A stretch of DNA of 64,000 nucleotides, from assembly GCF_017352195.1 (NCBI RefSeq), contig NZ_CP071445.1, positions 2,666,001-2,730,000 of the forward strand, read 5' to 3'. Positions 8,883 to 43,480 of the stretch are shown piece after piece. A program made the translations under genes and the position numbers. Source of the stretch: Sedimentibacter sp. zth1 (lineage in GTDB: Bacteria; Bacillota; Clostridia; Tissierellales; Sedimentibacteraceae). A model generated the notes under the pieces. The model made no database searches and had not been told where the DNA came from. It saw only the letters and a program-made list of their open reading frames with translations. Every line of letters begins with the position of its first letter. The stretch's first letter is position 1.

Positions 8883-8900
8883 AATAAATTTATAAAGAAT

Positions 8901-9033: not shown

Positions 9034-9073
9034 AATGTTAATGTAAATATTATATAAAAAGGTGGTAATTTTA

Positions 9074-13717: not shown

Positions 13718-13721
13718 TATT

Positions 13722-14420: not shown

Positions 14421-14432
14421 GGAGGTAATATT

Positions 14433-15364: not shown

Positions 15365-15608
15365 TCTATAGAAAAATTAGAAATATTTTGTAATACGTTT
15401 TAATACTATTGTTTACAGCATCTGATGAAAAACCACCTAAGAAAGTTAACTGATATACCTTAAGGTCTTTTACATTTTCTATATATTTGTGTAATTAATG
15501 TACTCGCGTCTCAAAACTATGTGTAAATTAATACCTGTTGTTTCGACAGTTAATTGTTCCAATTATTTTATTACCATGTCCATTAGGAAATTTTAATACA
15601 ATAGAAGG
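15365..15608 (-). pseudogene. Possible decayed reading frame
   Basis: Two minus-strand stretches read like protein: PSIVLKFPNGHGNKIIGTIN (from about 15608) and, in another frame, KDLKVYQLTFLGGFSSDAVN (toward 15365). They are separated by stops and frame changes and have no start codon or ribosome binding site. They may be remains of one gene. The family is not recognised. Confidence 0.25.
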
Positions 15609-26879: not shown

Positions 26880-26893
26880 TTTTGGGAGAAAAG

Positions 26894-27928
26894 ATGATTA
26901 ATGAATTAGAATTTAAAGATTTAAAAAAAGATTGTATTTTAATAGATGTTAGAAGTCCAGGCGAGTACAAAGATGGAACAATAGCAGGAGCTATAAATAT
27001 ACCAATACTTGATGATGAAGAAAGAAAAATTGTTGGAACAACATATACTCAATCAAGTAAAAATGAAGCAAGAAGACAAGGTGTTAAATTTGTTTCACCA
27101 AAGTTACCAGAGATATTTGATAAAGTTCTTGAGCTAAAGAAAAAAAATACATTAGTAGTAGTGTTTTGTGCAAGGGGAGGATATAGAAGCACGGCATTTG
27201 CATCTATATTTAGTGCAATAGGTGTTAATTTGTTCAAGTTAAAAGACGGTTACAAAGGTTATAGAAAATATGTATTGAACAATATGCCTAATTTAAGTAA
27301 AGATATAACATACATTGTTATGCATGGAAACACAGGTGTAGGCAAGACAAATATACTTTATGAACTTAAAAATTCAGAATTTGATATATTGGATTTAGAA
27401 GGATGTGCTAATCACAGAGGTTCACTTCTTGGAAGTGTTTGTATAGGAAATTGTAATACACAAAAAACGTTCGAAGCAAATTTATATCAAGAGTTAAGTG
27501 ATATAAAATCCAAATATGTATTTGTAGAGGCTGAAAGCAAAAAGATAGGAAAATGTGTAGTGCCTGAATATATATTTAGCAGTATGAAAAATGGCATACA
27601 TATAAATGTTGATGCATCAATACCTTATAGGATTGAAAGCCTTAAAAAGGATTACGTACTAAATGAAAACTGGATTGAGGAATCTATAGCTGCAATTGAT
27701 AAGCTAAGAAGATATATATCTAATGAAAAAGTAGATGATCTTCAAAACAAGTTAAGAGAAAATAATTTTGATGATGTTGCAGCGTTTTTGATGACAAATT
27801 ATTATGACCCAATGTATATGCATAAAGCAAATGAATATGATTATGCAGGAAAGTTTATTGCTGAAAAATCAGCCTATAATACTGCATTTGAAATAAAAAA
27901 ATGGTTTAACGAATATTTTGGAGGATAA
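26894..27928 (+). CDS. mnmH: tRNA 2-selenouridine synthase
   Basis: A 344-residue protein (SelU/YbbB) that replaces sulfur by selenium in wobble 2-thiouridines of tRNA using selenophosphate. The rhodanese domain has LIDVRSPGEYKDGTIAGAIN near 15-34 and catalytic Cys in VVFCARGGYRS near 95. The P-loop GNTGVGKT lies near 142-149, followed by LEGCANHRGSLLG. The start ATG at 26894 follows GGGAGA. It ends one base before the start of the second phosphatase gene. selD is not in this window. Confidence 0.93.
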   Translation: MINELEFKDLKKDCILIDVRSPGEYKDGTIAGAINIPILDDEERKIVGTTYTQSSKNEARRQGVKFVSPKLPEIFDKVLELKKKNTLVVVFCARGGYRSTAFASIFSAIGVNLFKLKDGYKGYRKYVLNNMPNLSKDITYIVMHGNTGVGKTNILYELKNSEFDILDLEGCANHRGSLLGSVCIGNCNTQKTFEANLYQELSDIKSKYVFVEAESKKIGKCVVPEYIFSSMKNGIHINVDASIPYRIESLKKDYVLNENWIEESIAAIDKLRRYISNEKVDDLQNKLRENNFDDVAAFLMTNYYDPMYMHKANEYDYAGKFIAEKSAYNTAFEIKKWFNEYFGG

Positions 27929-27929
27929 T

Positions 27930-28544
27930 ATGATTTTATATATTACAAGACATGGTGAAACAGAATGGAATGTACAGAAAAGATTTCAAGGACAAACTAA
28001 TTCTGAACTTACTTCAAATGGTATAGAAGGTGCTAGAAAACTTGGTGAATTTTTAGTTGGCGAAGATATTGATTTGATTATAGCGAGTCCTTTAAAAAGA
28101 ACAGTAGAAACAGCAGATATAATAAAGAAAAATATTGATATACCAGTTGTTTATGATAAGAGATTAATGGAAATATGTGCAGGAGATTTAGAGGGACAAC
28201 AATTTGACATTGCTAGGAAAAAATATGGGACAGTTATGAAGGAGATAAGAAGCTATCCGTTTGTTACACCGTATCCTAGTGGTGAAAGTATCATGGATGT
28301 GTATAATAGAATATCACAATTTATAGAAGATATAAAAAAGAAGTATAAGGATAAAAATATTTTGATAGTAACTCATGGTGTGGTTGTTAAATGCATGTAT
28401 TATTATTTAAATTTTGGACAAATTACAAAATGGGATAAACCATCTATAGAAAATTGCAGTTTAACTAAATTCAAAATAGAAGACAATTGTAACGAAAAAA
28501 TAATTTTCAATGATGTAAGTCATTTAAGTTTAGTAACAAATTAA
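27930..28544 (+). CDS. Histidine phosphatase family protein (copy 2)
   Basis: A 204-residue phosphoglycerate-mutase-like phosphatase, with ATG at 27930 immediately after the mnmH stop and behind GGAGG. Motifs: YITRHGETEWN (4-14), IASPLKRTVET, MEICAGDLEG and IVTHGVVVKC. It shares the same gene layout and many residues with the copy at 26256 (RHGxTxWN, NSELT, SPLKRT, ENCSLTKF), so the pair arose by duplication around mnmH. Substrate unknown. Confidence 0.85.
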   Translation: MILYITRHGETEWNVQKRFQGQTNSELTSNGIEGARKLGEFLVGEDIDLIIASPLKRTVETADIIKKNIDIPVVYDKRLMEICAGDLEGQQFDIARKKYGTVMKEIRSYPFVTPYPSGESIMDVYNRISQFIEDIKKKYKDKNILIVTHGVVVKCMYYYLNFGQITKWDKPSIENCSLTKFKIEDNCNEKIIFNDVSHLSLVTN

Positions 28545-28923: not shown

Positions 28924-29037
28924 TTGTTAAATAAAGAAAAACAAGCGATAGGATAAATGGTTTTGTTTGCATATAGTTTATTAAAATTTTTGGAGACTTT
29001 TTGCCATGTTAATTTGAATTTTGGTCAAATATTTTAG
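28924..29037 (+). other. Two tiny open frames opposite the regulator 3' end
   Basis: After TATAAT (28906-28911) and AAGGTGAT, a TTG starts a 10-residue frame (MLNKEKQAIG). Its stop is followed directly by ATG for a 26-residue hydrophobic peptide (MVLFAYSLLKFLETFCHVNL...), which overlaps the end of the convergent regulator gene. Short hydrophobic peptides beside Rgg-type regulators can be pheromones, but this one lacks a basic N-terminus and may be chance. Confidence 0.2.
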
Positions 29038-29956
29038 GAAATTCTTTTTTTGCTTTTTCTTCCATCTCGATTGCTATTTTTTCTTTATTGGAGTTTTTAT
29101 ATAGAGTTATGGAACATTGATATGCTTCTCTAGCACCATTATAATCACCTAATTTATATAATGTAAGATATTTTAATTGAAATAAACTTGCAATAAGTCT
29201 AGACATATTATTATCAAAAGAATAAGATAGACACTTTTCTATATTTTTTAAAGCTTCATTATAGTGGCCTAAATTGTAGTTAGTATTTACTATTTGGCAT
29301 AATATTGTTTGATATAATTTTGTAATAAATGAAATAGAGTAATAACTTTGATAAGATTGAGAGAAATAAAATTTTTCAATAGAGTTTAATATAAATTGTG
29401 CAATAGTTTTGCTTTCTTCAAATTTATCTAGTTTTCTATAACAACCACAAATAAGATTTAACATTGAATATCCTATATCTGAATATATATTGTTTGCTAC
29501 TTTTTGCAATGTAAAATTAGGTGATTCCTCTTGTATTCCTTCGATACATATTTCAATAGTTTTATAGTATTCTTCATTAATGTAAAATTCATAAGCAGCT
29601 TTTCCATAACACAGATGTGCAAAATTAGTACCTTTTTTAAAATTAGGTTTTTTTTCAAGTTCTTTACAAATAGCATATAGAGTAGTAAAATCTAATTTTT
29701 TTATACAACTGATTATATTGTTACAATATTCATGGTCTTCAAAACATTCATAATGATAAAAATTTTTGTAAAATTTGTTTAAATCTATATTAAATTTTGC
29801 AGACAAATGATGTAATATATATACCGATGGTTCGTTGATGTTTTTTTCTATTCTTTCTAGCTGCTTTTCAGAGCATATACCTGAACATAGTTTTTTTCTA
29901 GTAAGTTTATAAGAATTTCTTAAATTTTTCAGAAAATCTCCAAAAGTATTTTCCAT
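29009..29956 (-). CDS. XRE-HTH/TPR regulator (RNPP/Rgg-like)
   Basis: A 315-residue protein with an N-terminal XRE-type HTH: FGDFLKNLRNSYKLTRKKLCSGICSEKQLERIEKN at about residues 5-39, matching the layout of Rgg/PlcR regulators. It is followed by roughly 250 residues of TPR-like helical repeats (AHLCYGKAAYEFYINEEYYKTIEICIEGI; LNLICGCYRKLDKFEESKTIAQFILN; NTNYNLGHYNEALKNIEKCL). That architecture is typical of cytoplasmic receptors for imported oligopeptide signals. It is divergent from the peptide island and a perfect 26-bp palindrome lies 41 bases before its start, so it is the likely regulator of the island. Its ligand is unknown. Confidence 0.8.
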   Translation of the reverse strand: MENTFGDFLKNLRNSYKLTRKKLCSGICSEKQLERIEKNINEPSVYILHHLSAKFNIDLNKFYKNFYHYECFEDHEYCNNIISCIKKLDFTTLYAICKELEKKPNFKKGTNFAHLCYGKAAYEFYINEEYYKTIEICIEGIQEESPNFTLQKVANNIYSDIGYSMLNLICGCYRKLDKFEESKTIAQFILNSIEKFYFSQSYQSYYSISFITKLYQTILCQIVNTNYNLGHYNEALKNIEKCLSYSFDNNMSRLIASLFQLKYLTLYKLGDYNGAREAYQCSITLYKNSNKEKIAIEMEEKAKKEFPKIFDQNSN

Positions 29957-29996
29957 AATTATCCCCTATTAATAACAAAAATAAATATAAATTGAT

Positions 29997-30022
29997 GTCA
30001 ATAGACACATGTGTCTATTGAC
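29997..30022. promoter_or_regulatory. Perfect 26-bp palindrome, putative operator
   Basis: GTCAATAGACACA followed by its exact reverse complement (29997-30022). It lies between the divergent RNPP-type regulator and the first gene of the peptide island, just upstream of a plus-strand promoter. It is too A/T-poor at the tips and too central to be a terminator of either gene. Confidence 0.7.
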
Positions 30023-30027
30023 TATAA

Positions 30028-30056
30028 TCGACAATATTATACAATAATATTATAAA
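30028..30056 (+). promoter_or_regulatory. Candidate promoter of peptide island
   Basis: TCGACA (30028-30033), 17-base spacer and TATAAA (30051-30056), directly downstream of the 26-bp palindrome. Confidence 0.45.
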
Positions 30057-30115
30057 AGTGTCAAATTAATACAAGATTTGGAGAATATATGAAAAAAATG
30101 TAGAATAAAAATGTA

Positions 30116-30134
30116 TTTTGGAAATTTTCCAAAA
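30116..30134. promoter_or_regulatory. Palindrome in lipoprotein-gene leader
   Basis: TTTTGGAAATTTTCCAAAA is a perfect odd palindrome about 70 bases before the first lipoprotein gene. The following ~85 bases, including a TATAAT-like box, are duplicated with few changes before the third lipoprotein gene (about 41510-41597), where only half of the palindrome is kept. Confidence 0.4.
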
Positions 30135-30206
30135 ATGTCATGATAAAATGTAAAAAATTAAAATATAATAAATAACAAAATATCAATATGTATTAGGGGA
30201 AAAAAT

Positions 30207-31826
30207 ATGAAAAAACTATTACTATTACTATTAATAATATCAACATTAGTGTTTAGTGCTTGTGGCAAAGAGGATTTACCATACACTACTGAAAAAATAG
30301 AGGCACCAGAAGAATCTGCATCAAAATATGTCATGTATGATCCAATTGATAAGATTGAAGATACAAAATGGAGAGATATGACTTTTGAATCATTTAAAAC
30401 TAAGAATATAACATATTGGTTTGACAACTCTGTTGAAATGGATAAAAGAGTAAAATATGTATCTGATACATATATGGCTATAAATTATTTAGTAGAAAAA
30501 TATAACTTAACTGATATACCTGAGTACTACATAAGTTCTGATTTCTATAACCATATTGAAAAGGATGCTGTATACCTTAAATTAGACGAAGAAAGTAGTT
30601 GCATAGAAGAATTTATAATTCAGACTATGTTTAAATTAACTGATACAAAGTGCAATTATGGCTTAATATATGGAATTTCAAAGTCTATTGAAGATGAATT
30701 AAATACAATTGCAAGTAAGCAGGAGATTATAGAAAATTCAGATATATCAACATTTATAGAAAAAAATACAGAGGTTATGGATTTAACATTACCTGTATTT
30801 ATAACAGAATATTACAAAGAAGAAGATATAGAAAAGACAAAATATATAGCAAAAGAATTAGTAAAATATATGTCTGAAAAGCATGGAGAGGACAAGCTTG
30901 AAGAGCTTCTATTAAGCTCATCGAAGTTAACACTTGACTTTGATAAGGAATACAAAAAATATTGCGATGAATGGCTAAAAAGTATAGGTTGCAATGTAGC
31001 ATTACAGGACGAAACATTGCCTGTCAGATATGAGATATATGGAGATGAGCATTATCCAATTGCAATAGTAACAGAATGGATGACATACTGCTTTCATAGA
31101 GAATTTAAGGATAGAGATTCAGAAATGACAGGGTATAACGGAACATATCAGGATATTAAGGAATGCATACATACACTTGAAAAAGATATGAAAGATGTAA
31201 GAGACTATATTCCGGTTGAATTTACAAAAGAAGATGCTGATGGATATAAAACCTTTTTTAATAATTTTGTTGAACTTAATAATTATGAATCTTTAAGCTG
31301 TTACGATAAAATAGATTGTCTTACTTTATTGGATTATATTCATGAATATGCACATACAGTATCATTGGTAAATCATAGATTCTATTCAACTGATGAACTA
31401 TTGATAGAAGGAATAGCTGAATATTGTTTAAATAAATTTAGCAATTATAGTAAAGAAATAGATAAAAGTTGTTTAAATGAGTTTAGTAAAAGCCAAGATG
31501 CTAATAATCAATTAATATATAAAATTTATAGTCAATTTGCTAATGAGAATAAGGGTAAAGTGGATGATTTTACTTTATGTGAGATATTTTTTTATCAAAA
31601 TTACAAAAATTCTAATATAAACGTAATGGAGGATGATTATTTTTATCTATATTATTTTGGACCTATATTTACTAATTATTTAATATCAAACTATGGTATC
31701 AATAAATATATGGGAGTGTTTAATGATTTTGCTGAATTTTCTACGTGTTACAAAAAATCATTTCCCAACATGAAACAGGAAGTCTTAAATTATTTAATTG
31801 ACAAATATGATATATATGCAAAATAA
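30207..31826 (+). CDS. Lipoprotein with gluzincin-like domain (copy 1)
   Basis: A 539-residue predicted lipoprotein. The signal peptide is MKKLLLLLLIISTLVFSAC, with lipobox Cys19. Residues 20-350 are almost identical in the three copies of the island. The C-terminal part contains LLDYIHEYAHTVS (HExxH at 379-383) and LLIEGIAEYC, whose Glu401 lies 18 residues after the second His, as in gluzincin zinc peptidases (M1-like spacing). An anchored surface metallopeptidase is therefore likely; the family is not recognised. GGGG-type ribosome binding site at -10. It is the first gene after the operator, directly upstream of a small peptide gene, so a role in precursor processing, immunity or uptake is plausible but unproved. 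Confidence 0.72.
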   Translation: MKKLLLLLLIISTLVFSACGKEDLPYTTEKIEAPEESASKYVMYDPIDKIEDTKWRDMTFESFKTKNITYWFDNSVEMDKRVKYVSDTYMAINYLVEKYNLTDIPEYYISSDFYNHIEKDAVYLKLDEESSCIEEFIIQTMFKLTDTKCNYGLIYGISKSIEDELNTIASKQEIIENSDISTFIEKNTEVMDLTLPVFITEYYKEEDIEKTKYIAKELVKYMSEKHGEDKLEELLLSSSKLTLDFDKEYKKYCDEWLKSIGCNVALQDETLPVRYEIYGDEHYPIAIVTEWMTYCFHREFKDRDSEMTGYNGTYQDIKECIHTLEKDMKDVRDYIPVEFTKEDADGYKTFFNNFVELNNYESLSCYDKIDCLTLLDYIHEYAHTVSLVNHRFYSTDELLIEGIAEYCLNKFSNYSKEIDKSCLNEFSKSQDANNQLIYKIYSQFANENKGKVDDFTLCEIFFYQNYKNSNINVMEDDYFYLYYFGPIFTNYLISNYGINKYMGVFNDFAEFSTCYKKSFPNMKQEVLNYLIDKYDIYAK

Positions 31827-31868
31827 AACATATTTTGATTTATATATAATTTGATAAAGGAGGAATAT

Positions 31869-32027
31869 ATGGAAAATTTAACTGATGTAATATGGAATAG
31901 TGAAGAAGAAACAGAAGATTCTATTAATCGAATGGCTGAACCTGTTGATCCTGTGTTAATATTGGATTGTATGATAGTTACAACACCTGGTAGAATATAC
32001 AAATGTAAATTTTCATGTAGATTGTAA
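31869..32027 (+). CDS. Putative RiPP precursor peptide A
   Basis: A 52-residue peptide behind a strong AAAGGAGG. The acidic N-terminus MENLTDVIWNSEEETED parallels METLTSLIW-x-DEE of the two other small genes, and PVLILDC corresponds to their VIVLDC/EIVLNC. The C-terminal half has three Cys and ends KCKFSCRL, without the CTWWS found in B and C. It sits between lipoprotein copies 1 and 2 and is followed by a 17-bp stem-loop. A leader-core layout with Cys residues supports a ribosomally made, modified peptide. The modification and activity are unknown. Confidence 0.65.
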   Translation: MENLTDVIWNSEEETEDSINRMAEPVDPVLILDCMIVTTPGRIYKCKFSCRL

Positions 32028-32050
32028 GCTAATTCTTCATTATAAAGGAA

Positions 32051-32090
32051 TTCAATAAAACTATATATTATTTTATATAGTTTTATTGAA
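32051..32090 (+). terminator. Stem-loop after precursor A
   Basis: TTCAATAAAACTATATA (32051-32067) pairs perfectly with 32074-32090. U-rich right arm. It probably acts as terminator or attenuator between precursor A and lipoprotein copy 2. Confidence 0.7.
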
Positions 32091-32152
32091 ATAGTCATAG
32101 TATTTCAAGTAAAACTCAAACGTATATATTAAGTGTGAAGGATAGGATAAAT

Positions 32153-33784
32153 ATGAAAAAACTAATACTTTTAATAATAATAATATCAACATTAGTGTTT
32201 AGTGCTTGTGGCAAAGAAGATTTACCATACACTACTGAAAAAATTGAAGCACCAGAAGAATCTGCATCAAAATATGTCATGTATGATCCAATTGATAATA
32301 TTGAAGACACAAAATGGTGTGATATGACTTTTGAATCATTCAAAACTGATAATATAACATATTGGTTTGACAGCACAGTTGAAATGGATAAAAGAGTAAA
32401 ATATGTATCTGATACATATATGGTTATAAATTATTTAGTAGAAAAATATAACTTAACTGAAATTCCAGAGTATTATATAAGCCCTGAATTCTATAACCAT
32501 ATTGAAAAAGATACTGTATACCTTAAATTAGACGAAGAAAGCAGTTGCATAGAAGAATTTATAATTCAGACTATGTTTAAATTAACTGACACAAAGTGCA
32601 ATTATGGATTAATATATGGAATTTCAAAGTCTATTGAAGATGAATTAAATATAGTTGCAAGTAAGCAGGAGATTATAGAAAATTCAGATATATCAACATT
32701 TATAGAGAAAAATACAGAGGTTATGGATTTAACACTACCTGTATTTATAACAGAATATTATAAAGAAGAAGATATAGAGAAGACAAAATATATAGCAAAA
32801 AAATTTGTAAAACATATATCTGAAAAGCATGGAGAGGACAAGCTTAAAGAGCTTCTATTAAGTTCATCAGAGTTAACACTTGACTTTGATAAGGAATACA
32901 AAAAATATTGCGATGAATGGCTAAAAAGTATAGGTTGCAATATAGCATTACAGGACGAAACATTGCCTGTCAGATATGAGATATATGGTGATGAGCATTA
33001 TCCGATTGCAATAGTAACAGAATGGATGACATATTGTTTTCATAGAGAATTTAAGGATGAATGTGCAGAAATAACAGGATATAACGGAACATATCAGAAT
33101 GTGAAAGAATGTATACATACCTTTGAAAAAGAGATGAAGAATGTAAGAGACTTCTGGCCCGGTAAGTATACAAAAAAATATGTAGAAGGTTATGTGAGCT
33201 ATTTTAATAATTTTAATAGTTTTAATGAAATACACACACAATCAACTAGCCATTTAGATAAAATTATATGTCTTAGATTAATAGATTATTTACATGAATA
33301 TACTCACACAGTATCACTTTCTGAATTTGGTTATAGTGGAGTTACTGATAAATTTATTTATGAAGGATTGGCACAATATTGCTTATATGAACTAAGTAAT
33401 TATTATCGTGAAGTAGAATTAGGGCATTTAGTAGAAACTAAAAATGCAAATGACGGTCTACTTAAAAAAGCTTATTATATATATAGCAAATGCTATGGAG
33501 AAGATATTTCTGATTTTAACACATTAAATTTTTGGGAAATTGTTTTTTATGTAAATTACAGGCAAAAAGGTAAAATGCTATTAGAAAAGAAAAATTATTA
33601 TTATTTCTATAGAATTGGTCCATTATTCACCAACTATTTAATATCTAATTATGGCATTGACAAATACGTATCAGTGTTTAAAGATTTTGCAGATTTTTAT
33701 ATATGTTATCAAAAATCCTTTCCAGATATGAAACAGGAGTATATTGATTATTTATTTGAAAAATATGAGCCATATTATGAATAA
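32153..33784 (+). CDS. Lipoprotein with gluzincin-like domain (copy 2)
   Basis: A 543-residue lipoprotein. The start ATG at 32153 (MKKLILLIIIISTLVFSAC) fits AGGATAGG; an upstream GTG is in frame but would precede the signal peptide. The N-terminal ~345 residues closely match copies 1 and 3. The C-terminal third diverges but keeps YLHEYTHTVS (HExxH at 381-385) and FIYEGLAQYC, with Glu404 exactly 18 residues away in the M1-like spacing. FTNYLISNYGIDKY near the end is shared by all copies. Surface-anchored zinc peptidase is inferred. It lies between precursors A and B. Confidence 0.72.
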   Translation: MKKLILLIIIISTLVFSACGKEDLPYTTEKIEAPEESASKYVMYDPIDNIEDTKWCDMTFESFKTDNITYWFDSTVEMDKRVKYVSDTYMVINYLVEKYNLTEIPEYYISPEFYNHIEKDTVYLKLDEESSCIEEFIIQTMFKLTDTKCNYGLIYGISKSIEDELNIVASKQEIIENSDISTFIEKNTEVMDLTLPVFITEYYKEEDIEKTKYIAKKFVKHISEKHGEDKLKELLLSSSELTLDFDKEYKKYCDEWLKSIGCNIALQDETLPVRYEIYGDEHYPIAIVTEWMTYCFHREFKDECAEITGYNGTYQNVKECIHTFEKEMKNVRDFWPGKYTKKYVEGYVSYFNNFNSFNEIHTQSTSHLDKIICLRLIDYLHEYTHTVSLSEFGYSGVTDKFIYEGLAQYCLYELSNYYREVELGHLVETKNANDGLLKKAYYIYSKCYGEDISDFNTLNFWEIVFYVNYRQKGKMLLEKKNYYYFYRIGPLFTNYLISNYGIDKYVSVFKDFADFYICYQKSFPDMKQEYIDYLFEKYEPYYE

Positions 33785-33995
33785 TTGTAAATAGTTTTAT
33801 ATTGTGTGTGCTTACTTGTTGTTAGTTAATAATTAGCATTTTAGGTTGTATTTATTTAACATCTAAATTGTATGGCTTTGTGTTGATTATTTTCTATATA
33901 TTGATTTTGAATTTGCCATGATCATAAATTGCAATAATGCAATATTTTTGGAATATAAATTATGGCTGTATTAAACAATGATAGGAGGTGAAAAC

Positions 33996-34151
33996 ATGGA
34001 AACGTTAACATCGTTAATTTGGAGTGATGAAGAACAAGGACAAGAGATTGTACCTAATATTTCAACTACACCAGAAATTGTGCTTAACTGTTCAAAAGTT
34101 GTCCACCCTGGTGGTGTAGTAGCTTTGTGTACTTGGTGGAGTGCTCAATAG
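33996..34151 (+). CDS. Putative RiPP precursor peptide B
   Basis: A 51-residue peptide behind AGGAGGTG. The leader METLTSLIWSDEE is nearly identical to that of precursor C. The candidate core has LNCSKVVHPGGVVALCTWWS, that is Cys-x12-Cys with a central Gly-Gly and an aromatic end. It lies 94 bases before a radical SAM/SPASM gene, with a hairpin between them. This organisation is typical for Cys-containing radical-SAM peptides (sactipeptide or ranthipeptide-like thioether products), but the linkage cannot be read from sequence. Confidence 0.75.
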   Translation: METLTSLIWSDEEQGQEIVPNISTTPEIVLNCSKVVHPGGVVALCTWWSAQ

Positions 34152-34162
34152 GAATCGCAATA

Positions 34163-34203
34163 AATATAAAAGCTTTTATATTAAATATAAAAGCTTTTAT
34201 ATT
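34163..34203 (+). terminator. Hairpin between precursor B and maturase
   Basis: Two tandem copies of the palindrome AATATAAAAGCTTTTATATT (34163-34182 and 34184-34203). They can fold as one long hairpin. A near-identical motif follows precursor C. Partial termination here would raise precursor over enzyme. Confidence 0.7.
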
Positions 34204-34245
34204 TATTTGAAATAATACTTACTATTATACCAGGGAGATATAAAA

Positions 34246-35604
34246 ATGGTTATATTAAAAAATATAATAATTAAATTTGAAGATAAAGTTCTAATAATGA
34301 ATTTAATATCATTTAGAAGAAAATTTATTTCATATGATGAATTGGATTTACTCATTTCTATAGATACAAAATTAAAAAACAATGAAACAAGTTTTAGTAA
34401 TGAAGAAAAAACTTTATATAATAATTTGATTAATGAGAAACAAATATTAAATGAGGAAATAATAGAATCATTTGATAAGCAAATGAATGAAATTAGAAAG
34501 CAAAAAATAAAAGATATTGATTATAATATTGGTGAATCTATACAAATAAATATTACAGAAGAATGTAATTTTAATTGTGACTATTGTTACCAAAAAAAAT
34601 ATTCTTTAAATAATAGAAAATTAAAAATTGTTGATATTAAAAATATTAGAAAAGTTTGTGAAGAATATGTTAAAAATAATAATTATAAATATCAAATAAG
34701 CAAAGTGATAATTAGTGGTGGAGAATCCATTTTAGAGAGTAATATACCAATAATTTGGGAAATAGCAAATACATTTAAGGAAGCTAAGCTTGAGCTATTA
34801 ACAAATGGTTTCAATTTATCAAAATTCTTTTTTGATTTACCATTATCAAGAATAGAAAAAATGCAAGTAAGCCTTGATGGTGATAATAATATAATATCAA
34901 ATTTATCATTAAATGGGAAAAACGTAAATGTTTATGACAGAATAATAAATGGAATTAAACTAGCATTAGAAAATAATATAAATATTACAATAAATTCTAT
35001 GATTAATTTAGAAAATGCAAATAATATTGAAAATTTTATAAAAAATTTGGAGAAAAACAATATATTAAGTAAAGTAAGACTTGTTTTTACTCCTATATTT
35101 AGCTTTTGTAGTGAAATAGAAATAGATACTAATTTCTATGATGAAAATGAATTTATTACTTGTTATAAAAAAATAGGTGAAATTACAAAGAAATATAATA
35201 ATATTATTATGCAGAACTTTAAGTGTTTATCACCTTTAGAGAATCTACTTCTAAGGGAACTTAACCTAAAGCCTACTTACGGTTTTTGTCGTTGTAACTG
35301 GGACACAGGCTTAGTGTTAGTATTTGGTGCTGATAGAAGAATATATTGGTGTGCTAAGACAGATGATACAGTTGGTGTCGTTGGTGAATTTGGAGATAGT
35401 ATATATATTGATTCTGATAAAGTGAAAACAATACTTAATAGGGGAATATATAACATAGAAGAATGTAAAAAATGTGACTTTAGATATGTATGCAATGGAG
35501 GATGTATTTTATATAGTTATAGTAAATCAAAAAATATTAATACTCCATATTGTGGCTGCTTTAAAAATGAAAAAATTTTAAATAATCTGCCAAAATTACT
35601 ATAA
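34246..35604 (+). CDS. Radical SAM/SPASM peptide maturase 1
   Basis: A 452-residue enzyme. An N-terminal ~95-residue region (leader recognition, probably) precedes the radical SAM cluster motif CNFNCDYC (C107-C111-C114). Then come VIISGGES (SAM-binding GGE) near 158 and LLTNG near 185. The C-terminal SPASM-type domain has Cys-rich segments RCNWDTG, YWCAKTDD, CKKCDFRYVCNGGC and YCGC, enough to hold auxiliary Fe-S clusters. The start is supported by its conservation with the paralogue at 39934. It presumably modifies precursor B just upstream. Clearly more than two-thirds of residues are shared with maturase 3. Confidence 0.88.
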   Translation: MVILKNIIIKFEDKVLIMNLISFRRKFISYDELDLLISIDTKLKNNETSFSNEEKTLYNNLINEKQILNEEIIESFDKQMNEIRKQKIKDIDYNIGESIQINITEECNFNCDYCYQKKYSLNNRKLKIVDIKNIRKVCEEYVKNNNYKYQISKVIISGGESILESNIPIIWEIANTFKEAKLELLTNGFNLSKFFFDLPLSRIEKMQVSLDGDNNIISNLSLNGKNVNVYDRIINGIKLALENNINITINSMINLENANNIENFIKNLEKNNILSKVRLVFTPIFSFCSEIEIDTNFYDENEFITCYKKIGEITKKYNNIIMQNFKCLSPLENLLLRELNLKPTYGFCRCNWDTGLVLVFGADRRIYWCAKTDDTVGVVGEFGDSIYIDSDKVKTILNRGIYNIEECKKCDFRYVCNGGCILYSYSKSKNINTPYCGCFKNEKILNNLPKLL

Positions 35605-35646
35605 TAGAAACACTTTTTATAAGTTATATAAAGGGAAGGCAATAAA

Positions 35647-36573
35647 ATGAAGGAAAATATACTTATATTAGCAGACATGGAAGGAATAATAGGTATTTAC
35701 GATATGTCTGACAAGGATAAATGCAAAAGTTATATGGAAACAGAAATAAAATTATTACTTGATGAGTTAATTAGTAATGATGAATTTGAAATATATTTTT
35801 GTGATATACATGACAATGGAGAAACAACTTCTGAACTATATTCATTGTATCCAACAGTAAATTTTATAAAATGTTATTGGAATATTGATTTTAAAATAAA
35901 ATATGACTATGCAATGTTAACAGGATTACATGCGAAAAGTGGTATTGGTGTTTTGGCACATTCATTTAGAGATGAGATAAAAAATGTGTTTTTAGGAGAA
36001 AGAATTGTTGGAGAAATAGAAGTATTTATTAATTTATTAGCCTATTATAAAATACCAACAATTTTTGTAAGTGCTGATGAGCAAGCAATGAATGAAATAC
36101 CTAGCTATGTTGTTTCTACAAACATTAGCAAAAGTAGCCTTGATAAAGAAAAAGTAAAAAATAATTTGACTAAAAAGTATAAAGCATATGTAAAGAATTT
36201 AAGATATGGGTTATCACATAGAGATAGAGCTAAATATAAATATAACTCAGATAGTGTGCAAATAGAGTTACAAGATAATAATTTACTACAATATTTAGAA
36301 GATAGTGGAATTTATACTAAGTCAAATATGATATATATAAATGATAATGTTAAAATAATGGATAATTTATTGAAAGTAGCAAATTTAATGAATACTTATT
36401 ATAAAAATGAATATGTGAAACTATTGAAAAAATTAAGAGAAAAGTTTAGAAATTGTGATTTTAATAATATAAAAAGTAAAAAGATGAAAAGGATATTATC
36501 TATTCCTTTACAAAACTTAAGTCTTGATGATCTGAAAATTGTAAACGCAGAATTAGAAAAAATATTTTATTAG
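35647..36573 (+). CDS. M55 D-aminopeptidase (DppA-like)
   Basis: A 308-residue protein whose first ~170 residues match the zinc D-aminopeptidase DppA. ADMEG gives D10 and E12; CDIHDNG gives H55; TGLHAKSG gives H95; VLAHSF gives H105 (the catalytic-His position); and ERIVGEIEV gives E123. These correspond to the DppA ligands Asp8, Glu10, His60, His104, Glu133 and His115. The C-terminal ~120 residues are divergent, basic and helical. Members of the family cleave peptides with N-terminal D-residues in the cytoplasm. Its place between a radical SAM gene and the exporter suggests trimming or detoxifying a D-residue-containing product; this is inference. Confidence 0.8.
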   Translation: MKENILILADMEGIIGIYDMSDKDKCKSYMETEIKLLLDELISNDEFEIYFCDIHDNGETTSELYSLYPTVNFIKCYWNIDFKIKYDYAMLTGLHAKSGIGVLAHSFRDEIKNVFLGERIVGEIEVFINLLAYYKIPTIFVSADEQAMNEIPSYVVSTNISKSSLDKEKVKNNLTKKYKAYVKNLRYGLSHRDRAKYKYNSDSVQIELQDNNLLQYLEDSGIYTKSNMIYINDNVKIMDNLLKVANLMNTYYKNEYVKLLKKLREKFRNCDFNNIKSKKMKRILSIPLQNLSLDDLKIVNAELEKIFY

Positions 36574-36586
36574 AATTAGAGGTTAT

Positions 36587-38284
36587 ATGATAAAAATAAT
36601 TAAGGTGTTTAGATGTTGCTTACAGCATTTTGTTATGTATAAATGGCAGTTTATATTCTCAAATTTATGCATTTTATTGAGATTGGCTATTTCTATAATA
36701 CAACCAATAATTTATGCAAAATTTGTTACATCTTTATATGCGATGGACAAAAATGGTATGATATTAAATTTACTATATATTATAGGGTTTTATTTAATAG
36801 GTATGTTTTTCATGTATATTGGCAGTAAAGTAGATATAAAAATTAAAAAAAATGTTGCAATTGATATCAAACGTAAATTAATGAAATGTACTTTAACATC
36901 CAGACAAACAATTTTAAATGACTATGCAATGGACAAGCTAATGTCTATAATGTACAATGATTCTCTAACTGCTAGAGATTATGTATATACAATATGTAGT
37001 TATATTAAAGATGTTCTTAACGTAATAGTTGTAGGTTTTATAATAATGAAAATTAATTTTGTATTATCAGTAATTGTAGTATTAGCTTTTCCATTAATTA
37101 TATTTATTAATAAAAAGTATGCTGCAAAAATAAATAAAATTAGTAAAGAAATATATAAAGATACAGACAACTTAGTTGGCATAATTAATAAAAATGTAAT
37201 GAATATGAATGATATAAAATATAGCAATTCAATAAGAACAATACTCAAACAGTTTGAAGAGAAAACAAAAATATTCAATATAAAATCAATATATTGTGAT
37301 AATTTAAAATTAAATAATTCAATTTTATCTAGTTTAATAAGTTTTATTGGTAATATGGTATTTCTTTTTTTAGGGGTATATTTTATTACAAATGATAAAA
37401 TACAAGTTGGCATGTTTATAGCATATTTGTCATATTCCAAAATATTTACAAGTTCATTGTTTTCGATAACGACAATGAATGCAAATCTGCAACAACAAGT
37501 AGTTTCAGCTGAAAGAGTAAACTGTTTTTTAGACAAATGTAAAATAGGTATAAGTAAAAATGAATTAGAATTAATAGATGTTGATAATGTTGAAAATATA
37601 AAAATAGATGATGTGGTATTAGTAAAAAAAGGTAACACAATATTCAATAAACAGTCATTGAATATTAATTCAAATAACATAGTAAAATTAATAGGTCAAA
37701 ATGGGTGTGGAAAAACATCTCTGCTAAATTTAATTGCTAATATTTATGACGCAAATGGTGGAAAAATTAAATTTAATGATGTAAATGTTAATCAAATCAA
37801 ATTCACAAGTATAGTTAAGAATATAACATATGTAAGCCAGATACCTATAATGTATGAAATGACAATTAAACAGAATCTTTTAATGTCAAAGGAAACTGAA
37901 AATATAGACGATAAAAAATTGATGGAAATATGTTCTGAATTTTCAATACTTGATGATATTTTAAATATGCCAAATCAGTTTGAAACGTATATAACTGAGG
38001 ATTTTAATTTATCAGCAGGACAGAAGAAAAAAATACAATTAATAAGGTGCATATTAAGAAATACATCAGTTATCCTCTTTGACGAACCTCTTGCAAATAC
38101 AGATAATGAATTCAAAATTCATTTTAATGATTTAATAAATAAATATTGCAAAAATAAAATAGTAATAGTGGCAACACATAATAGTGAATATTTAAATGAT
38201 TATGATACTTTAGTAAATATAAATAATAAAAATATAATTGTTAACTATGGGGGTAAAAATGAAACTAACAAAATATATGGTTAA
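36587..38284 (+). CDS. ABC exporter (fused membrane and ATPase domains)
   Basis: A 565-residue half-transporter. About six helices occupy residues 20-330. The ATPase domain has Walker A GQNGCGKT near 370, signature LSAGQKKK near 475, Walker B SVILFDEP near 495 and H-loop VATHNS near 525. There is no N-terminal C39 peptidase, so leader removal must use another protease. Context points to export of the modified peptide(s). Its 3' end overlaps the following radical SAM gene by 26 bases, indicating translational coupling. Confidence 0.88.
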   Translation: MIKIIKVFRCCLQHFVMYKWQFIFSNLCILLRLAISIIQPIIYAKFVTSLYAMDKNGMILNLLYIIGFYLIGMFFMYIGSKVDIKIKKNVAIDIKRKLMKCTLTSRQTILNDYAMDKLMSIMYNDSLTARDYVYTICSYIKDVLNVIVVGFIIMKINFVLSVIVVLAFPLIIFINKKYAAKINKISKEIYKDTDNLVGIINKNVMNMNDIKYSNSIRTILKQFEEKTKIFNIKSIYCDNLKLNNSILSSLISFIGNMVFLFLGVYFITNDKIQVGMFIAYLSYSKIFTSSLFSITTMNANLQQQVVSAERVNCFLDKCKIGISKNELELIDVDNVENIKIDDVVLVKKGNTIFNKQSLNINSNNIVKLIGQNGCGKTSLLNLIANIYDANGGKIKFNDVNVNQIKFTSIVKNITYVSQIPIMYEMTIKQNLLMSKETENIDDKKLMEICSEFSILDDILNMPNQFETYITEDFNLSAGQKKKIQLIRCILRNTSVILFDEPLANTDNEFKIHFNDLINKYCKNKIVIVATHNSEYLNDYDTLVNINNKNIIVNYGGKNETNKIYG

Positions 38285-39593
38285 AATAGACTTGAAAACA
38301 AAGGATAATAAATATTTAATAATTAATACAATATATGGTGCCGTAAATGTTGTAGAAAATAAATATTCAAATATAATAGATAAATGGATTGAAGAAGATA
38401 ATATTGTTCCAAAATCTGATGATGAAATAAAATTGTATGAATTTTTATCCAAGTCAAAATATTTAGCAAGTGAAGAGGAAGAAGAACAGCAAAAAAATGC
38501 GCTGTTAACAAAGTTGCGATCAAAACACATAGAAAATATGAAAAACATAAATTCAGTTACATTTATATTAACATATAATTGTAATTTTAAATGTCCATAT
38601 TGTTATGAAGGTGATAATAAAAATCGTATTAAAGTTATTACAAAAGAAATGGTAGATAGAGTATTTGAAATGCATAAAAATATAGAAAAAATAAACTTTT
38701 TTGGCGGAGAGCCATTACTGCTTAGTAATATAGATATTATCAAATACATTATTTCAAAGGCTCCTAATGCAACATATTATGCATTTACAAATGGGTATTA
38801 TTTAAAAGAATATATGGATGTTTTAATAAATATCAAAGTTGAATTTATACAAGTCACATTAGACGGAGATTCAAATATACATAATAAGACAAGAATATTG
38901 AAAAATGGTGGTCAAACATTTGATAAAATAATGGAAGGTATTGATTTATGCCTAAAAAATAACATTTCAATTAAAATAAGAATGAATATCTCTAATGACA
39001 ATGTAGACAGTTGCTTAAAATTAAGAGAAGAAATGTTAAATAAATATAAATGGACAGACTTATTAAAGTTTGAATTGCAGCCTATTTATCAACTTGAAGA
39101 AAAAGAAAGGATAGAGGTTGAAGATAAAATTTATTGGAATAAGAAAGATTTAGAAAGTGGTAATGATAAGTCTTTAAATATAAATAAAAATATTATATTA
39201 AACACAGCATCGCCTTTAATTAAAGCATTGTTATTGAAATCAGGGAAAATATATCCCAAATATTGTAATTGTGGTGCAGAAGAGAATAATAGGTATTATG
39301 ATGCAGAAGGAAATATATATACATGTTTAATTGCAGTAGGTGATACTAAAAAGGCTGTGGGAACATATTACCCTGAATATAAACTAAAAGAAAATAGCTT
39401 TCTAAATCGAAATATTGAAACTATAAAAGAGTGTAAAGACTGTAAACTTGCTTTTTTGTGTGGTGGAGGTTGTGGGAATGTATTAAAAGAAGATGATAAT
39501 TGCTTAAGACCTAATTGCAGTCAAATTATGAAAGAGTTGTATGTAAATATTCCTAAAATCTATAATAACTTTTATGAGGTAGAGAAAAAGTAG
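38259..39593 (+). CDS. Radical SAM/SPASM enzyme 2
   Basis: A 444-residue enzyme. ATG at 38259 follows ATGGGGGT; the longer frame from 38238 is less likely. Cluster motif CNFKCPYC (C108-C112-C115), FFGGEPLL near 145, FTNG near 172. The SPASM domain has YCNCGAEENNRYYD, IYTCL, CKDCKLAFLCGGGC and a final C-x4-C. It is only distantly similar to maturases 1 and 3, with a different N-terminal region, so it probably performs another step or acts on another precursor (A is the candidate). It overlaps the ABC gene and precedes precursor C. Confidence 0.87.
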   Translation: MKLTKYMVKIDLKTKDNKYLIINTIYGAVNVVENKYSNIIDKWIEEDNIVPKSDDEIKLYEFLSKSKYLASEEEEEQQKNALLTKLRSKHIENMKNINSVTFILTYNCNFKCPYCYEGDNKNRIKVITKEMVDRVFEMHKNIEKINFFGGEPLLLSNIDIIKYIISKAPNATYYAFTNGYYLKEYMDVLINIKVEFIQVTLDGDSNIHNKTRILKNGGQTFDKIMEGIDLCLKNNISIKIRMNISNDNVDSCLKLREEMLNKYKWTDLLKFELQPIYQLEEKERIEVEDKIYWNKKDLESGNDKSLNINKNIILNTASPLIKALLLKSGKIYPKYCNCGAEENNRYYDAEGNIYTCLIAVGDTKKAVGTYYPEYKLKENSFLNRNIETIKECKDCKLAFLCGGGCGNVLKEDDNCLRPNCSQIMKELYVNIPKIYNNFYEVEKK

Positions 39594-39699
39594 TCAAAAA
39601 ATATTAATATTTAAATAGTAGATTTATAATATATTATCTGAAATATATTATTTTGAAATATATTATTTTCTAAATCAAAATTGTTAAGGAGGTATAAGA

Positions 39700-39846
39700 A
39701 TGGAGACATTAACTAGTTTAATTTGGAAAGATGAAGAAATCGAGACAGATGGTATTGATGATCCTGTAATAGTTCTAGATTGTACTCATCATAATGGTGG
39801 AACAATTGGCACCAATCCCGTTTGTACGTGGTGGTCAAAAAACTAA
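39700..39846 (+). CDS. Putative RiPP precursor peptide C
   Basis: A 48-residue peptide behind AAGGAGG. Leader METLTSLIWKDEE matches precursor B. Candidate core: VLDCTHHNGGTIGTNPVCTWWS, here cited as VLDC, a Gly-Gly and CTWWS; the two Cys are 13 residues apart. The C-terminal CTWWS is identical to precursor B. It is followed by a hairpin and then maturase 3, repeating the B arrangement, so the pair is a duplicated precursor-maturase cassette. Confidence 0.75.
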   Translation: METLTSLIWKDEEIETDGIDDPVIVLDCTHHNGGTIGTNPVCTWWSKN

Positions 39847-39853
39847 TTAATTG

Positions 39854-39890
39854 TACAAAAGCTTTTATATTCAATATAAAAGCTTTTGTA
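39854..39890 (+). terminator. Hairpin between precursor C and maturase 3
   Basis: TACAAAAGCTTTTATAT (39854-39870) pairs perfectly with 39874-39890 over a TCA loop. The sequence is close to the hairpin after precursor B. Confidence 0.72.
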
Positions 39891-39933
39891 TTGTAATAAG
39901 GTTAATAGATAAAAAAATTATGGAGAATGAAAA

Positions 39934-41295
39934 ATGGTTATTTTAAAAAATATTATTATCAAATATAAAGAAAAAGTTTTAATAATGAACTTAATAACAT
40001 TCAGAAGAAAATTTATTTCATATGGTGAGTTAGATTTGCTAATTTCTATATATACAAAATTAAAAAATAATGAATCACATTTTAGCTATAAAGAAAAAAC
40101 TCTGTATGATAATTTGATTAATGAAAGACAGATATTAAGTGACGAAATTATAGAGTTATTTGATAAAAAAATGAATGAAATAAGAAAACAAAAAATTAAA
40201 GATATTAATTATAACATTTCTGAATCTATACAGATAGATATAACAGATGAATGTAATTTTAATTGTGTATACTGTTATCAAAAAAAATATTCTTCAAAAA
40301 ATCGTAGATTGGAAATTAAAGATATAAAAAATATTAGGAAAGTCTGTGAGGAATATGTTAAAAAAAATAATTATAAATATAAAATCAATAGAGTAGTAAT
40401 TGCTGGTGGAGAATCTATATTAGAGAACAACATACCAATAATATGGGAAATAGCAAATACATTTAAAGATGCAAAGCTGGTTTTGTTAACAAATGGTTTT
40501 AACTTATCTAAACTTTTTTATGATTTGCCATATACTAGAATAGCAGAAATACAGGTAAGTCTTGATGGTAATAACAACATAATATCAAATTTATCACTAA
40601 ATGGACAAAATATAAATGCATATGAAAGAATAGTAGATGGAATAAAATTAGCGATAGAAAATAATATAAATATTATAATTCATTCTTTAATTAATATAGA
40701 AAATGTAAATAATATAGAAAACTTTATTAATGATTTGGAACAAAATAATATATTGAATAAAATAAAACTTGTTTTTTCTCCTATATCTAATTTTTGTAGT
40801 GACGTGGATATAGATACTAGTTTCTATAGTATAGATAAGTTTATTGATTGTTATAGAAAGTTGGGAAAAATACAAAAAATGTATAATAATATTATTTTAG
40901 AGGATTTCAAGAGCTTGGTTTTATTAGAGAATAACATTATTAGAAAAATAAATGAAAAACCTAATTATAGGTTTTGTCGTTGTATCTGGGAAAAAGGTTT
41001 AGTGCTAGTCTTTTCAACTGATAAAAATATATATTGGTGTACAAAGACAGATGATAATGTTGGAGTAGTTGGAGATTTTATAAATAATATGTCTATTGAT
41101 ATTGATGCAGTTAAAGCAATACTTAATAGGGGGATATATACTATAGAAGAATGTAAAAAATGTGATTTTAGATACGTATGTAACGGAGGATGTATTTTAT
41201 ATAGTTATAATAAATTAAAAAATATTAATACTCCATATTGTGGTTGTTTAAAAAATGAAAGAGTACTAAATAACCTTCAAAAGCTTTTGATTTAA
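39934..41295 (+). CDS. Radical SAM/SPASM peptide maturase 3
   Basis: A 453-residue paralogue of maturase 1 with the same start MVILKNIIIK, cluster motif CNFNCVYC at C107-C111-C114, VVIAGGES, LLTNG and the SPASM segments RCIWEKG, YWCTKTDD, CKKCDFRYVCNGGC and YCGC. All cluster cysteines are kept, so it is expected to be active. It lies 87 bases after precursor C and is presumably paired with it. The next gene is the third lipoprotein copy, beyond a 302-bp spacer. Confidence 0.87.
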   Translation: MVILKNIIIKYKEKVLIMNLITFRRKFISYGELDLLISIYTKLKNNESHFSYKEKTLYDNLINERQILSDEIIELFDKKMNEIRKQKIKDINYNISESIQIDITDECNFNCVYCYQKKYSSKNRRLEIKDIKNIRKVCEEYVKKNNYKYKINRVVIAGGESILENNIPIIWEIANTFKDAKLVLLTNGFNLSKLFYDLPYTRIAEIQVSLDGNNNIISNLSLNGQNINAYERIVDGIKLAIENNINIIIHSLINIENVNNIENFINDLEQNNILNKIKLVFSPISNFCSDVDIDTSFYSIDKFIDCYRKLGKIQKMYNNIILEDFKSLVLLENNIIRKINEKPNYRFCRCIWEKGLVLVFSTDKNIYWCTKTDDNVGVVGDFINNMSIDIDAVKAILNRGIYTIEECKKCDFRYVCNGGCILYSYNKLKNINTPYCGCLKNERVLNNLQKLLI

Positions 41296-41597
41296 ACATG
41301 TATTATTATGATTTAGTTAATATTGATGTAAATGTTAATTTCAAAAGGAAATCAAAATGTATAAATTTTACGAAATGCTATAAAAATAAACAATCTATTA
41401 AATTACGGGATAATTAATATGATTATAATAATTTTATATAATAATTAAAAAACCTTGACCAAAGGGCATTACGTTAATTCGTAGAAAACATAGAATAGAA
41501 ATTTGTTGTTAAAATTTTCCAAAAACATCATGGTAAAATGTAAAAAAATTAAAATATAATAAAAGACAAAATATCAATATGTAATAGGAGAAAAAAT
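41296..41597. other. 302-bp spacer before lipoprotein copy 3
   Basis: Holds a 23-base exact copy (41453-41475) of part of the inverted-repeat element at 28660-28818, then a duplicate of the leader and promoter region of lipoprotein copy 1 (from about 41510). This suggests that lipoprotein copy 3 was inserted here together with its upstream DNA. No gene seen. Confidence 0.65.
41453..41475 (+). repeat. Fragment of the 28.7-kb inverted-repeat element
   Basis: Begins CCTTGACCAAAGGGCATTAC and is identical over 23 bases to 28750-28772; neither arm of the larger element is present here. Confidence 0.7.
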
Positions 41598-43217
41598 ATG
41601 AAAAAACTAATACTTTTAATATTAATTATATCAACATTAGTGTTTAGTGCTTGTGGCAAAGAAGATTTACCATACACTGCTGAAAAGATTGAAGTACAAG
41701 AAGAATCTGAATCAAAATATGTTATGTATGACCCAATTGATAAGATTGAAGACACAAAATGGAGAGATATGACTTTTGAATCATTTAATACTGATAATAT
41801 AACATACTGGTTTGACAGTACAGTTGAAATGGATAAAAGAATAAAATATGTATCTGATACGTATATGGTTATAAATTATTTAGTAGAAAAATATAACTTA
41901 ACTGAAATTCCAGAGTATTATATAAGCCTTGATTTCTATAACCATATTGAAAAAGGTAATGTATACCTTAAATTAGATGAAGAAAGCAGTTGTATAGAAG
42001 ACTTTATAATTCAGACTATGTTTAAATTAACCGATACAAAGTGCAATTATGGCTTAATATATGGAATTTCAAAGTCTATTGAAGATGAATTAAATACAAT
42101 TGCAAGTAAGCAGGAGATTATAGAAAATTCAGATATATCAACATTTATAGAAAAAAATACAGAGGTTATGGATTTAACATTACCTGTATTTATAACAGAA
42201 TATTACAAAGAAGAAGATATAGAAAAGACAAAATATATAGCAAAAGAATTTGTAAAATATATATCTGAAAAGCATGGAGAGGACAAGCTTAAAGAGCTTT
42301 TATTAAGTTCATCGGAGTTAACACTTGACTTTGATAAGGAATACAAAAAATATTGCGATGAATGGTTAAAAAACATAGATTGCAATATAGCATTACAGGA
42401 TGAAACATTGCCTGTCAGATATGAGATATATGGTGATAAGCATTATCCAGTGGCAATAGTAACAGAGTGGATGACATACTGCTTTCATAGAGAATTTAAG
42501 GATGAAAATACAGGTATAACAGGATATAAAGGAACATATCAAAATGTGAAAGAATGTATACGTACCTTTGAGAAAGAGATGAAGGATGTAAGAGACTTCT
42601 GGCCCGGAGAGTATACTAAAATGGATGCCAAAGAGAATATAACTTTTTTTAACAACTTCAAATTACCTAATAATCATAGGTCAGAATATAAATTTACAAG
42701 AATAGACTGTACAAACTTAATGGACTATATACATGAGTATACTCATGCAGTTACATTTAAAATAGACAGAATAAAGACAGATGAAATTATAACGGATGGA
42801 ATAGCGCAATATTGTGCTTATAAATATAGTAACTATCGAAGAATAGAGGATTTGAAACATTTGACAGAAAGTATAAATTCTAAAGAGTATCCATTTAAAG
42901 ACTTATATCAAATATATAGTCAGTACTACGGTAAAGATGTTTCTAATATTGATGTTATTAGTTTTTGGGAAATTGTTTTTTATGTAAATTACAGACAAGA
43001 TGGTAAAATTATATTAGAAAACGAGTATATTTATAATTATAGTTTCGGACCACTATTTACCAACTATTTAATATCTAATTATGGCATTGACAAATATGTA
43101 TCAGTGTTTAATGATTTTGCAGATTTTTACATATATTATCAAAAATCCTTTGAAGATATGAAACAGGAGTATATTGATTATGTATTTGAAAAATATGATA
43201 TGTATTATGAAAATTAA
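41598..43217 (+). CDS. Lipoprotein with gluzincin-like domain (copy 3)
   Basis: A 539-residue lipoprotein with lipobox LVFSAC at the same place and an N-terminal ~345 residues nearly identical to copies 1 and 2. The C-terminal third diverges: it keeps YIHEYTHAV (HExxH at 379-383), but the motif that carries the third ligand reads ITDGIAQYC, with Asp400 instead of Glu and the spacing one to two residues shorter. It may have reduced or altered zinc binding, or serve a non-enzymatic role such as immunity. It ends the island before a terminator. Confidence 0.7.
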   Translation: MKKLILLILIISTLVFSACGKEDLPYTAEKIEVQEESESKYVMYDPIDKIEDTKWRDMTFESFNTDNITYWFDSTVEMDKRIKYVSDTYMVINYLVEKYNLTEIPEYYISLDFYNHIEKGNVYLKLDEESSCIEDFIIQTMFKLTDTKCNYGLIYGISKSIEDELNTIASKQEIIENSDISTFIEKNTEVMDLTLPVFITEYYKEEDIEKTKYIAKEFVKYISEKHGEDKLKELLLSSSELTLDFDKEYKKYCDEWLKNIDCNIALQDETLPVRYEIYGDKHYPVAIVTEWMTYCFHREFKDENTGITGYKGTYQNVKECIRTFEKEMKDVRDFWPGEYTKMDAKENITFFNNFKLPNNHRSEYKFTRIDCTNLMDYIHEYTHAVTFKIDRIKTDEIITDGIAQYCAYKYSNYRRIEDLKHLTESINSKEYPFKDLYQIYSQYYGKDVSNIDVISFWEIVFYVNYRQDGKIILENEYIYNYSFGPLFTNYLISNYGIDKYVSVFNDFADFYIYYQKSFEDMKQEYIDYVFEKYDMYYEN

Positions 43218-43428
43218 TTTAAATATATTTAGTTTTGTAAAGATTTAGATTGTGATGTGGACAAGTTTATTTCTTGTATAATTTTTAAAACTTAATGGAG
43301 ATTTTAAAGATAATATGTGTTACTCTAATAGTTAATATTGAATCGTAAGTGACTTTTATGTAAATAAAAAAATGCAGAGAAGATGAAATTATTTTTCATA
43401 ACCTCACATTTATTATAGAACCCAAATT

Positions 43429-43460
43429 AAAAGCTGTGCAAATTTTATTGCACAGCTTTT
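43429..43460. terminator. Bidirectional terminator island / activase
   Basis: AAAAGCTGTGCA (43429-43440) pairs with 43449-43460, 12 bp with an 8-base loop, between convergent genes. The stem resembles the one at 28546. Confidence 0.9.
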
Positions 43461-43480
43461 AATATATATTTATGTTTTCT

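Follow-up and report, generated by a model that had tools for sequence, protein, structure and literature searches.

A conserved radical SAM RiPP cassette with an M55 peptidase and a core-linked array of predicted surface peptidases in Sedimentibacter sp. zth1: an apparently undescribed variant

The described systems closest to the locus analyzed here are the ranthipeptide/SCIFF system of CteB and those of PapB, CefB, Clo7bot and TIGR04463. The likeness extends to the radical SAM core, the SPASM cysteines and short Cys-containing precursors, and may include an RRE domain; these systems supply the best NCBIfam and PDB matches. Unlike them, the present locus has maturases that score far below the equivalog cut-offs, two maturase types per locus, a different leader, and M55 and lipoprotein partners. 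In thuricin CD, as would be the case here, two radical SAM enzymes (TrnC/TrnD) serve more than one precursor (PMC12093266). Thuricin CD differs in being a sactipeptide. To our knowledge, neither an M55 enzyme nor a paired surface peptidase occurs there.

For the peptidases of the locus, the comparison is with AplP/SflL (M1), the class III lanthipeptide leader proteases, and other metalloproteases (PMC10885120), which likewise place a gluzincin-type zinc peptidase in a RiPP context. Unlike AplP/SflL, however, the peptidases of the island are lipid-anchored, are apparently built as a dead/live tandem, number about one per core, and are hypervariable in their catalytic half. Bacteriocin immunity families with orphan copies, and CAAX proteases, are alike in having variable protector genes beside variable peptides, some of them orphaned. 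The island differs from these in encoding a predicted lipid-anchored extracellular zinc peptidase, and protection here is putative, being suggested by genetic pairing.

The island, its precursors and its maturases

The window, i.e., the whole stretch of DNA analyzed, comprises 64,000 nt of Sedimentibacter sp. zth1 (GCF_017352195.1; NZ_CP071445.1, positions 2,666,001-2,730,000, forward strand); the coordinates of island features refer to it. The island (30207-43217) has a G+C content of 24.5%, against 29.5% elsewhere in the window. It is flanked by a histidine-phosphatase-like gene that ends at 28544 on one side and by a 1416-aa gene that starts at 43481 on the other, and an intrinsic terminator (43426..43463, plus strand) marks its end. 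The upstream neighborhood includes a probable tRNA 2-selenouridine synthase-like gene with a rhodanese domain, between two histidine-phosphatase-like genes (26256-28544). Elsewhere in the window, Rfam identifies a purine riboswitch (7076-7178) and a T-box leader (58356-58557).

All the genes named in an earlier note, which was made from the sequence alone, are present where it had placed them. Apart from the regulator discussed below, they read on the plus strand, with short intergenic gaps and one gene overlap. The lipoprotein gene lipo1 (30207..31826) is followed by the precursor gene pepA (52 aa; 31869..32027) and, directly downstream of the latter, by lipo2 (32153..33784), which, given this position, is the probable partner of pepA. 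Next are pepB (51 aa; 33996..34151), the maturase gene rSAM1 (34246..35604), a gene for an M55-family zinc peptidase (35647..36573), that for an ABC exporter (36587..38284), and rSAM2 (38259..39593), whose start codon is most likely at 38259. The order ends with pepC (48 aa; 39700..39846), rSAM3 (39934..41295) and lipo3 (41598..43217).

Strong ribosome-binding sites (AGGAGG/GGAGG) precede all three precursor frames, and each frame is followed, ahead of the next gene, by a perfect plus-strand stem-loop: 17 bp after pepA (32051..32090), 24 bp after pepB (34159..34207) and 18 bp after pepC (39854..39890). With this layout, precursor output could exceed enzyme output. The three peptides are homologous to one another. 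The earlier note had staked its reading on the small frames being conserved beside homologous maturases; homologous small frames are indeed kept there in six other genomes, and this conservation rules out chance small ORFs. The precursors, 48-65 aa long, have no meaningful match in NCBIfam or Pfam. The leader pattern M-x-x-[LI]-x-x-[LIV]-I-W (LxxLIW/IIW) is found in 17 of 17 precursors, and in the same 17 of 17 some 30 residues lead to an invariant Cys. The core, short and hypervariable, starts at this Cys and always includes at least one further Cys, giving at least two in every precursor. Leaders of one locus resemble one another, often to near identity, and it is in the cores that its precursors differ. 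Two features by which a RiPP cluster is recognized are found: a short precursor kept beside modifying enzymes, at seven loci, and a conserved leader joined to a variable core.

The locus had been credited with three maturases. Three enzymes are present, though they are really two type A paralogues, rSAM1 and rSAM3 (74% identity), plus a distant type B enzyme, rSAM2 (about 30%). The CxxxCxxC motif and the SPASM cysteines are in place, and PF04055 scores over its cut-off. The maturases match many radical SAM peptide maturases in NCBIfam, all far under the equivalog cut-offs. CefB, PapB, Clo7bot and TIGR04463 are the best matches of rSAM2, which is nearest CefB/PapB, and of its relatives, with at best about 121 bits against 600 for CefB and 118 against 340 for PapB; no maturase reaches the equivalog cut-off of the curated ranthipeptide maturase families CefB, PapB, SCIFF and Clo7bot. 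In a PDB profile search, CteB (5wgg) came top for both maturase types. At the N terminus of the rSAM1 model (pLDDT 64) is a bbb-aaa domain that is RRE-like, and the model matches CteB over the full length, but with an rmsd of 10. A PADLOC match of rSAM1 to viperin (pVip) spans only the common radical SAM core, and an anti-phage identity was rejected.

Conservation of the cassette

Precursor(s), rSAM-A, rSAM-B, M55 and ABC genes are all present, in varying order, at seven loci in six genera, i.e., in the window and at L038, L039, L040, L007, L057 and L075. The chance expectation of an M55 gene lying within 10 kb of rSAM-A is 0.3-0.7% per genome. This is the co-occurrence that the earlier note had proposed to look for, and it strongly supports the claim of a multi-product radical SAM RiPP locus. 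Lipoprotein arrays alternating with the precursors are held by five of the seven loci; L039 and L040 have precursors and no lipoprotein of this kind.

In the order (249 genomes), a search with rSAM1 matched four genomes, three beyond that of the window, and a precursor profile matched the same four plus G235. The G238 cassette was reached via a lipoprotein profile; G235 and G238 are of the same genus, so they are not independent. L007 (G621, Lachnospiraceae), whose contig ends within the rSAM-A gene, came from a profile scan of genome contigs. It was the sole useful match of a mixed rSAM alignment, which was diluted by rSAM2 and otherwise returned mostly unrelated radical SAM genes. Since each profile search missed members (G235 and G238 with rSAM-A, G238 with the precursors), the prevalence obtained is a lower bound. 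Rarity and a scattered distribution are indicated, since no further cassette was found with rSAM-A or precursor queries in a class sample of 391 genomes, and 397 genomes of the family of L007 gave only its own cassette. rSAM1 has no match among plasmids. G499 was rejected as a carrier, its radical SAM gene being without the cassette.

Some loci have features of their own. L039 (the G162 cassette) has on its flanks one more radical SAM gene (2859-3950) and the gene of a large exported protease that is M16-like (12574-15582). L040 has, between precursor and rSAM-A, a small M50-like membrane protein with the motif HEMGH (8709-9224), a protease type used by epipeptides. In L007, precursors at 4629-4808 and 6709-6906 are on the strand opposite to the maturases and lipoproteins.

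Surface lipoproteins and their pairing with cores

The three paralogous HExxH lipoproteins that had been reported are present and are 73-79% identical. A lipobox-like signal occurs in all lipoproteins, and in every copy examined, whether of the window, of the other cassettes or solo, HExxH is followed by a motif of the type [DE]G-x-A-x-Y: HEYAH...EGIAEY in lipo1, HEYTH...EGLAQY in lipo2 and HEYTH...DGIAQY in lipo3. These are the elements of a gluzincin, namely HExxH and a downstream E/D helix. Against NCBIfam and Pfam the lipoproteins match essentially signal-peptide models alone, with no Pfam match over cut-off that would place them in M1, M30, M61 or M9, and their best PDB sequence match, to an aminopeptidase, is weak (E 0.013). 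The N-half aligns to the C-half by profile, a weak match (P 2e-4), and the HExxH position is lost in it; in the model, this half is similar in structure to gluzincins (collagenases, M30 lugdulysin and M1), with best Z of 8-10. The model of the whole protein is poor (pLDDT 52), with no confident model of the C-half, and because of this the evidence that the lipoproteins may be gluzincins in tandem, dead in the N-half and live in the C-half, is moderate. A defence-system identity was rejected, as neither the M55 protein nor the lipoprotein has a PADLOC match.

The first 300 residues of the three window paralogues are 85-98% identical and show low synonymous divergence. In their C-halves identity is mostly 25-67% (one pair reaches 83% at one end), and synonymous divergence is often near or above 1. 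The same trend of a conserved N-half and a variable C-half is seen in the L038, L007 and G235/G238 arrays. Such an identity pattern would result if gene conversion acted on the N-half while the catalytic half beside it had diversified. The fourth array lipoprotein of L057 (G235; 11960-13597) has two in-frame TAA codons, and its downstream part is still in frame.

The sister species G235 and G238 both have the core INxNCGCGSYNPxTLCN. The lipoproteins directly downstream of it (l3) are 97% identical between the two species in the C-half and 98% in the variable region, yet 80% in the N-half; the other cross-species C-half pairs of these arrays are at most 75% identical, save one pair at 89%. Since the C-half is so much better conserved than the N-half beside the same core, the precursor core and the downstream peptidase domain were inherited as a unit in this one clear two-species case. 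There is a counter-example: downstream of two G238 cores that are nearly identical, the lipoproteins are just 61% identical in the variable region. The genome of the window also has two stand-alone lipoproteins far from the island (L073 8578-10197 and L074 9100-10716), again with a conserved N-half and a diverged C-half, and further stand-alone copies are found in G156, G235 and G238. Precursor remnants were looked for near the solo lipoproteins, and none were found. The apparent tandem build, the variation of catalytic halves with cores, and the orphan copies elsewhere in the genome had escaped the earlier note.

Judging from these sequence comparisons, we consider it on balance probable that the island is a multi-product RiPP cassette of the ranthipeptide type with core-matched surface peptidases. 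The leader would dock on the N-terminal RRE-like domains of the maturases, and the type B enzyme, probably with type A too, would crosslink the Cys-containing core through thioethers of the ranthipeptide kind (or through other radical links). Present in one copy, the M55 enzyme would probably act on all products in the cytosol, in leader trimming or clean-up, and the ABC protein would export them. Each lipoprotein would work at the surface as a zinc peptidase matched to a single core and would most likely shield the producer from its own exported peptide by cutting it, and the stand-alone lipoproteins would be orphan immunity genes. Because the precursors share their leaders but not their cores, and because the M55 enzyme is single and the lipoproteins are many, the former most likely acts on the shared part and the latter on the part that differs. 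The imperfect pairing in G238 and the lack of lipoproteins in L039 and L040 speak against core matching. As to self-protection, the fourth L057 lipoprotein has its in-frame stops though it lies downstream of an intact precursor, which is odd for an essential immunity gene.

It is tempting to go further, though only tentatively, and to regard the cassette as a polymorphic peptide/peptidase conflict system. Hypervariable cores modified by the radical SAM enzymes would each be inherited together with a lipid-anchored tandem dead/live gluzincin, core-matched in its catalytic half and giving specific immunity by hydrolysis, the shared M55 enzyme would act on the products, and the orphan lipoproteins would be directed against rivals.

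Alternatively, the lipoproteins could be dedicated maturation proteases, each exported, leader-bearing peptide having a gluzincin of its own that cuts it at the cell surface. The only real domains of the ABC protein are ABC_membrane and ABC_tran, in agreement with the exporter without a peptidase domain described earlier; lacking a C39 domain, it leaves the leader to come off by other means. Leader removal must be taken as a serious rival because metalloproteases of types M1, M16, M61 and M50 are known to remove the leaders of other RiPPs (PMC10885120) and because protease neighbors of bacteriocin genes can be maturation enzymes, as is the case of SilX, a bacteriocin-region CAAX protease needed for production and not for immunity (PMC9298176). 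The HExxH motif, kept in every lipoprotein copy, also agrees with it. The leaders, however, are nearly identical within a locus, so that one protease would suffice, and it is the core that varies; moreover, stand-alone lipoproteins have no precursor nearby, and at L039 and L040 precursors are made although no lipoprotein of this kind is present. Dedicated maturation thus appears somewhat unlikely. Since the lipoproteins are many, the cores differ and orphan copies exist, self-protection would be the more likely role.

M55 peptidase, regulation and the nature of the products

The M55 protein of the window scores 69 bits against a PF04951 cut-off of 25, and there is no other M55 gene in its genome. 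Like the D-aminopeptidase DppA, the cassette enzymes belong to the M55 family, and at the six positions that align with the active site of B. subtilis DppA, the residues D, E, H, H, H and E are kept in six of the six cassette enzymes examined. They differ from DppA in sitting in a RiPP operon, in their much lower PF04951 scores (62-132 bits, against 272-327 for other M55 genes of the same genomes) and in forming a clade split from the DppA-type genes with a support of 1.00. The DppA equivalog NF058634 is not reached (46 bits against a cut-off of 430). The metalloproteases that a recent review of RiPP leader proteases names (PMC10885120) do not include M55, and in the open-licence literature we found no paper joining M55 or D-aminopeptidases with radical SAM RiPPs.

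Given a D-aminopeptidase family with intact active-site residues, one radical SAM enzyme might epimerize the core and the M55 enzyme act on D-residues, in trimming or self-protection, the product being a D-amino-acid thioether RiPP. The M50-like protein of L040, as in epipeptides (PMC10885120), and the presence of EpeE among the structure matches of the rSAM1 model (Z 14.7) would fit, but many other radical SAM enzymes rank as high as EpeE and the fold alone is not diagnostic. Since the cassette M55 is also so far from DppA that its specificity may differ, we regard epimerization as unlikely.

The regulator gene (29009..29956, minus strand) encodes an HTH-TPR protein that matches PlcR (phmmer E 2.4e-6), with TPR_1/TPR_2 over cut-off; it therefore has the HTH plus TPR build, homologous to PlcR, of an RNPP protein. 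A sigma-70-like promoter (12/12; 30064-30036, minus strand) is directed at it, and just downstream of this promoter is a perfect 26-bp palindrome, GTCAATAGACACATGTGTCTATTGAC (29997..30022, no strand), a candidate operator that differs from the PlcR box. The regulator probably controls the island in this genome. It differs from PlcR in that no adjacent PapR-type gene is seen, and no convincing small ORF of the pheromone type adjoins it. The locus had been called quorum-responsive. The PlcR-like regulator and the palindrome make this plausible here, but with no pheromone gene and no conservation of the regulator the claim is weakened; because the regulator is not seen at the other six loci, and because a histidine kinase/response regulator pair stands beside the array in L057 and L075, quorum control is best taken as local and plausible only.

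Radical SAM products under RNPP/Rgg control are known. The products could, then, be signaling peptides and not antimicrobials, with the PlcR-like regulator, whose promoter region holds the palindrome, sensing re-imported product and the lipoproteins degrading or processing the signals. We consider this quite unlikely: an importer gene, like the pheromone-type ORF, is not seen, the other loci lack such a regulator (L057 and L075 having the two-component pair), and hypervariable cores with paired peptidases resemble conflict genes. That the lipoproteins are general nutritional surface peptidases merely duplicated beside RiPP genes, as their stand-alone occurrence in the genome of the window, G156, G235 and G238 might suggest, is very unlikely, since neither their alternation with precursors at five of seven loci nor the co-inheritance of core and C-half in G235/G238 is expected of a chance neighborhood.

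The impression that the island is undescribed holds up: the precursors and lipoproteins have no NCBIfam or Pfam family, the maturases are far below equivalog cut-offs, and no paper with the combination was found in the open-licence literature. The cassette is real and conserved, and it is apparently an undescribed variant among radical SAM RiPP systems, its core-linked peptidases forming an unusual array. With it, RiPP cassettes gain a family that includes an M55 peptidase, and in this family variable peptide cores are paired, repeatedly and by genetic linkage, with variable surface peptidases. Should this pairing reflect specificity, the arrays would give ready peptide/peptidase pairs with which to study the recognition and destruction of modified peptides.
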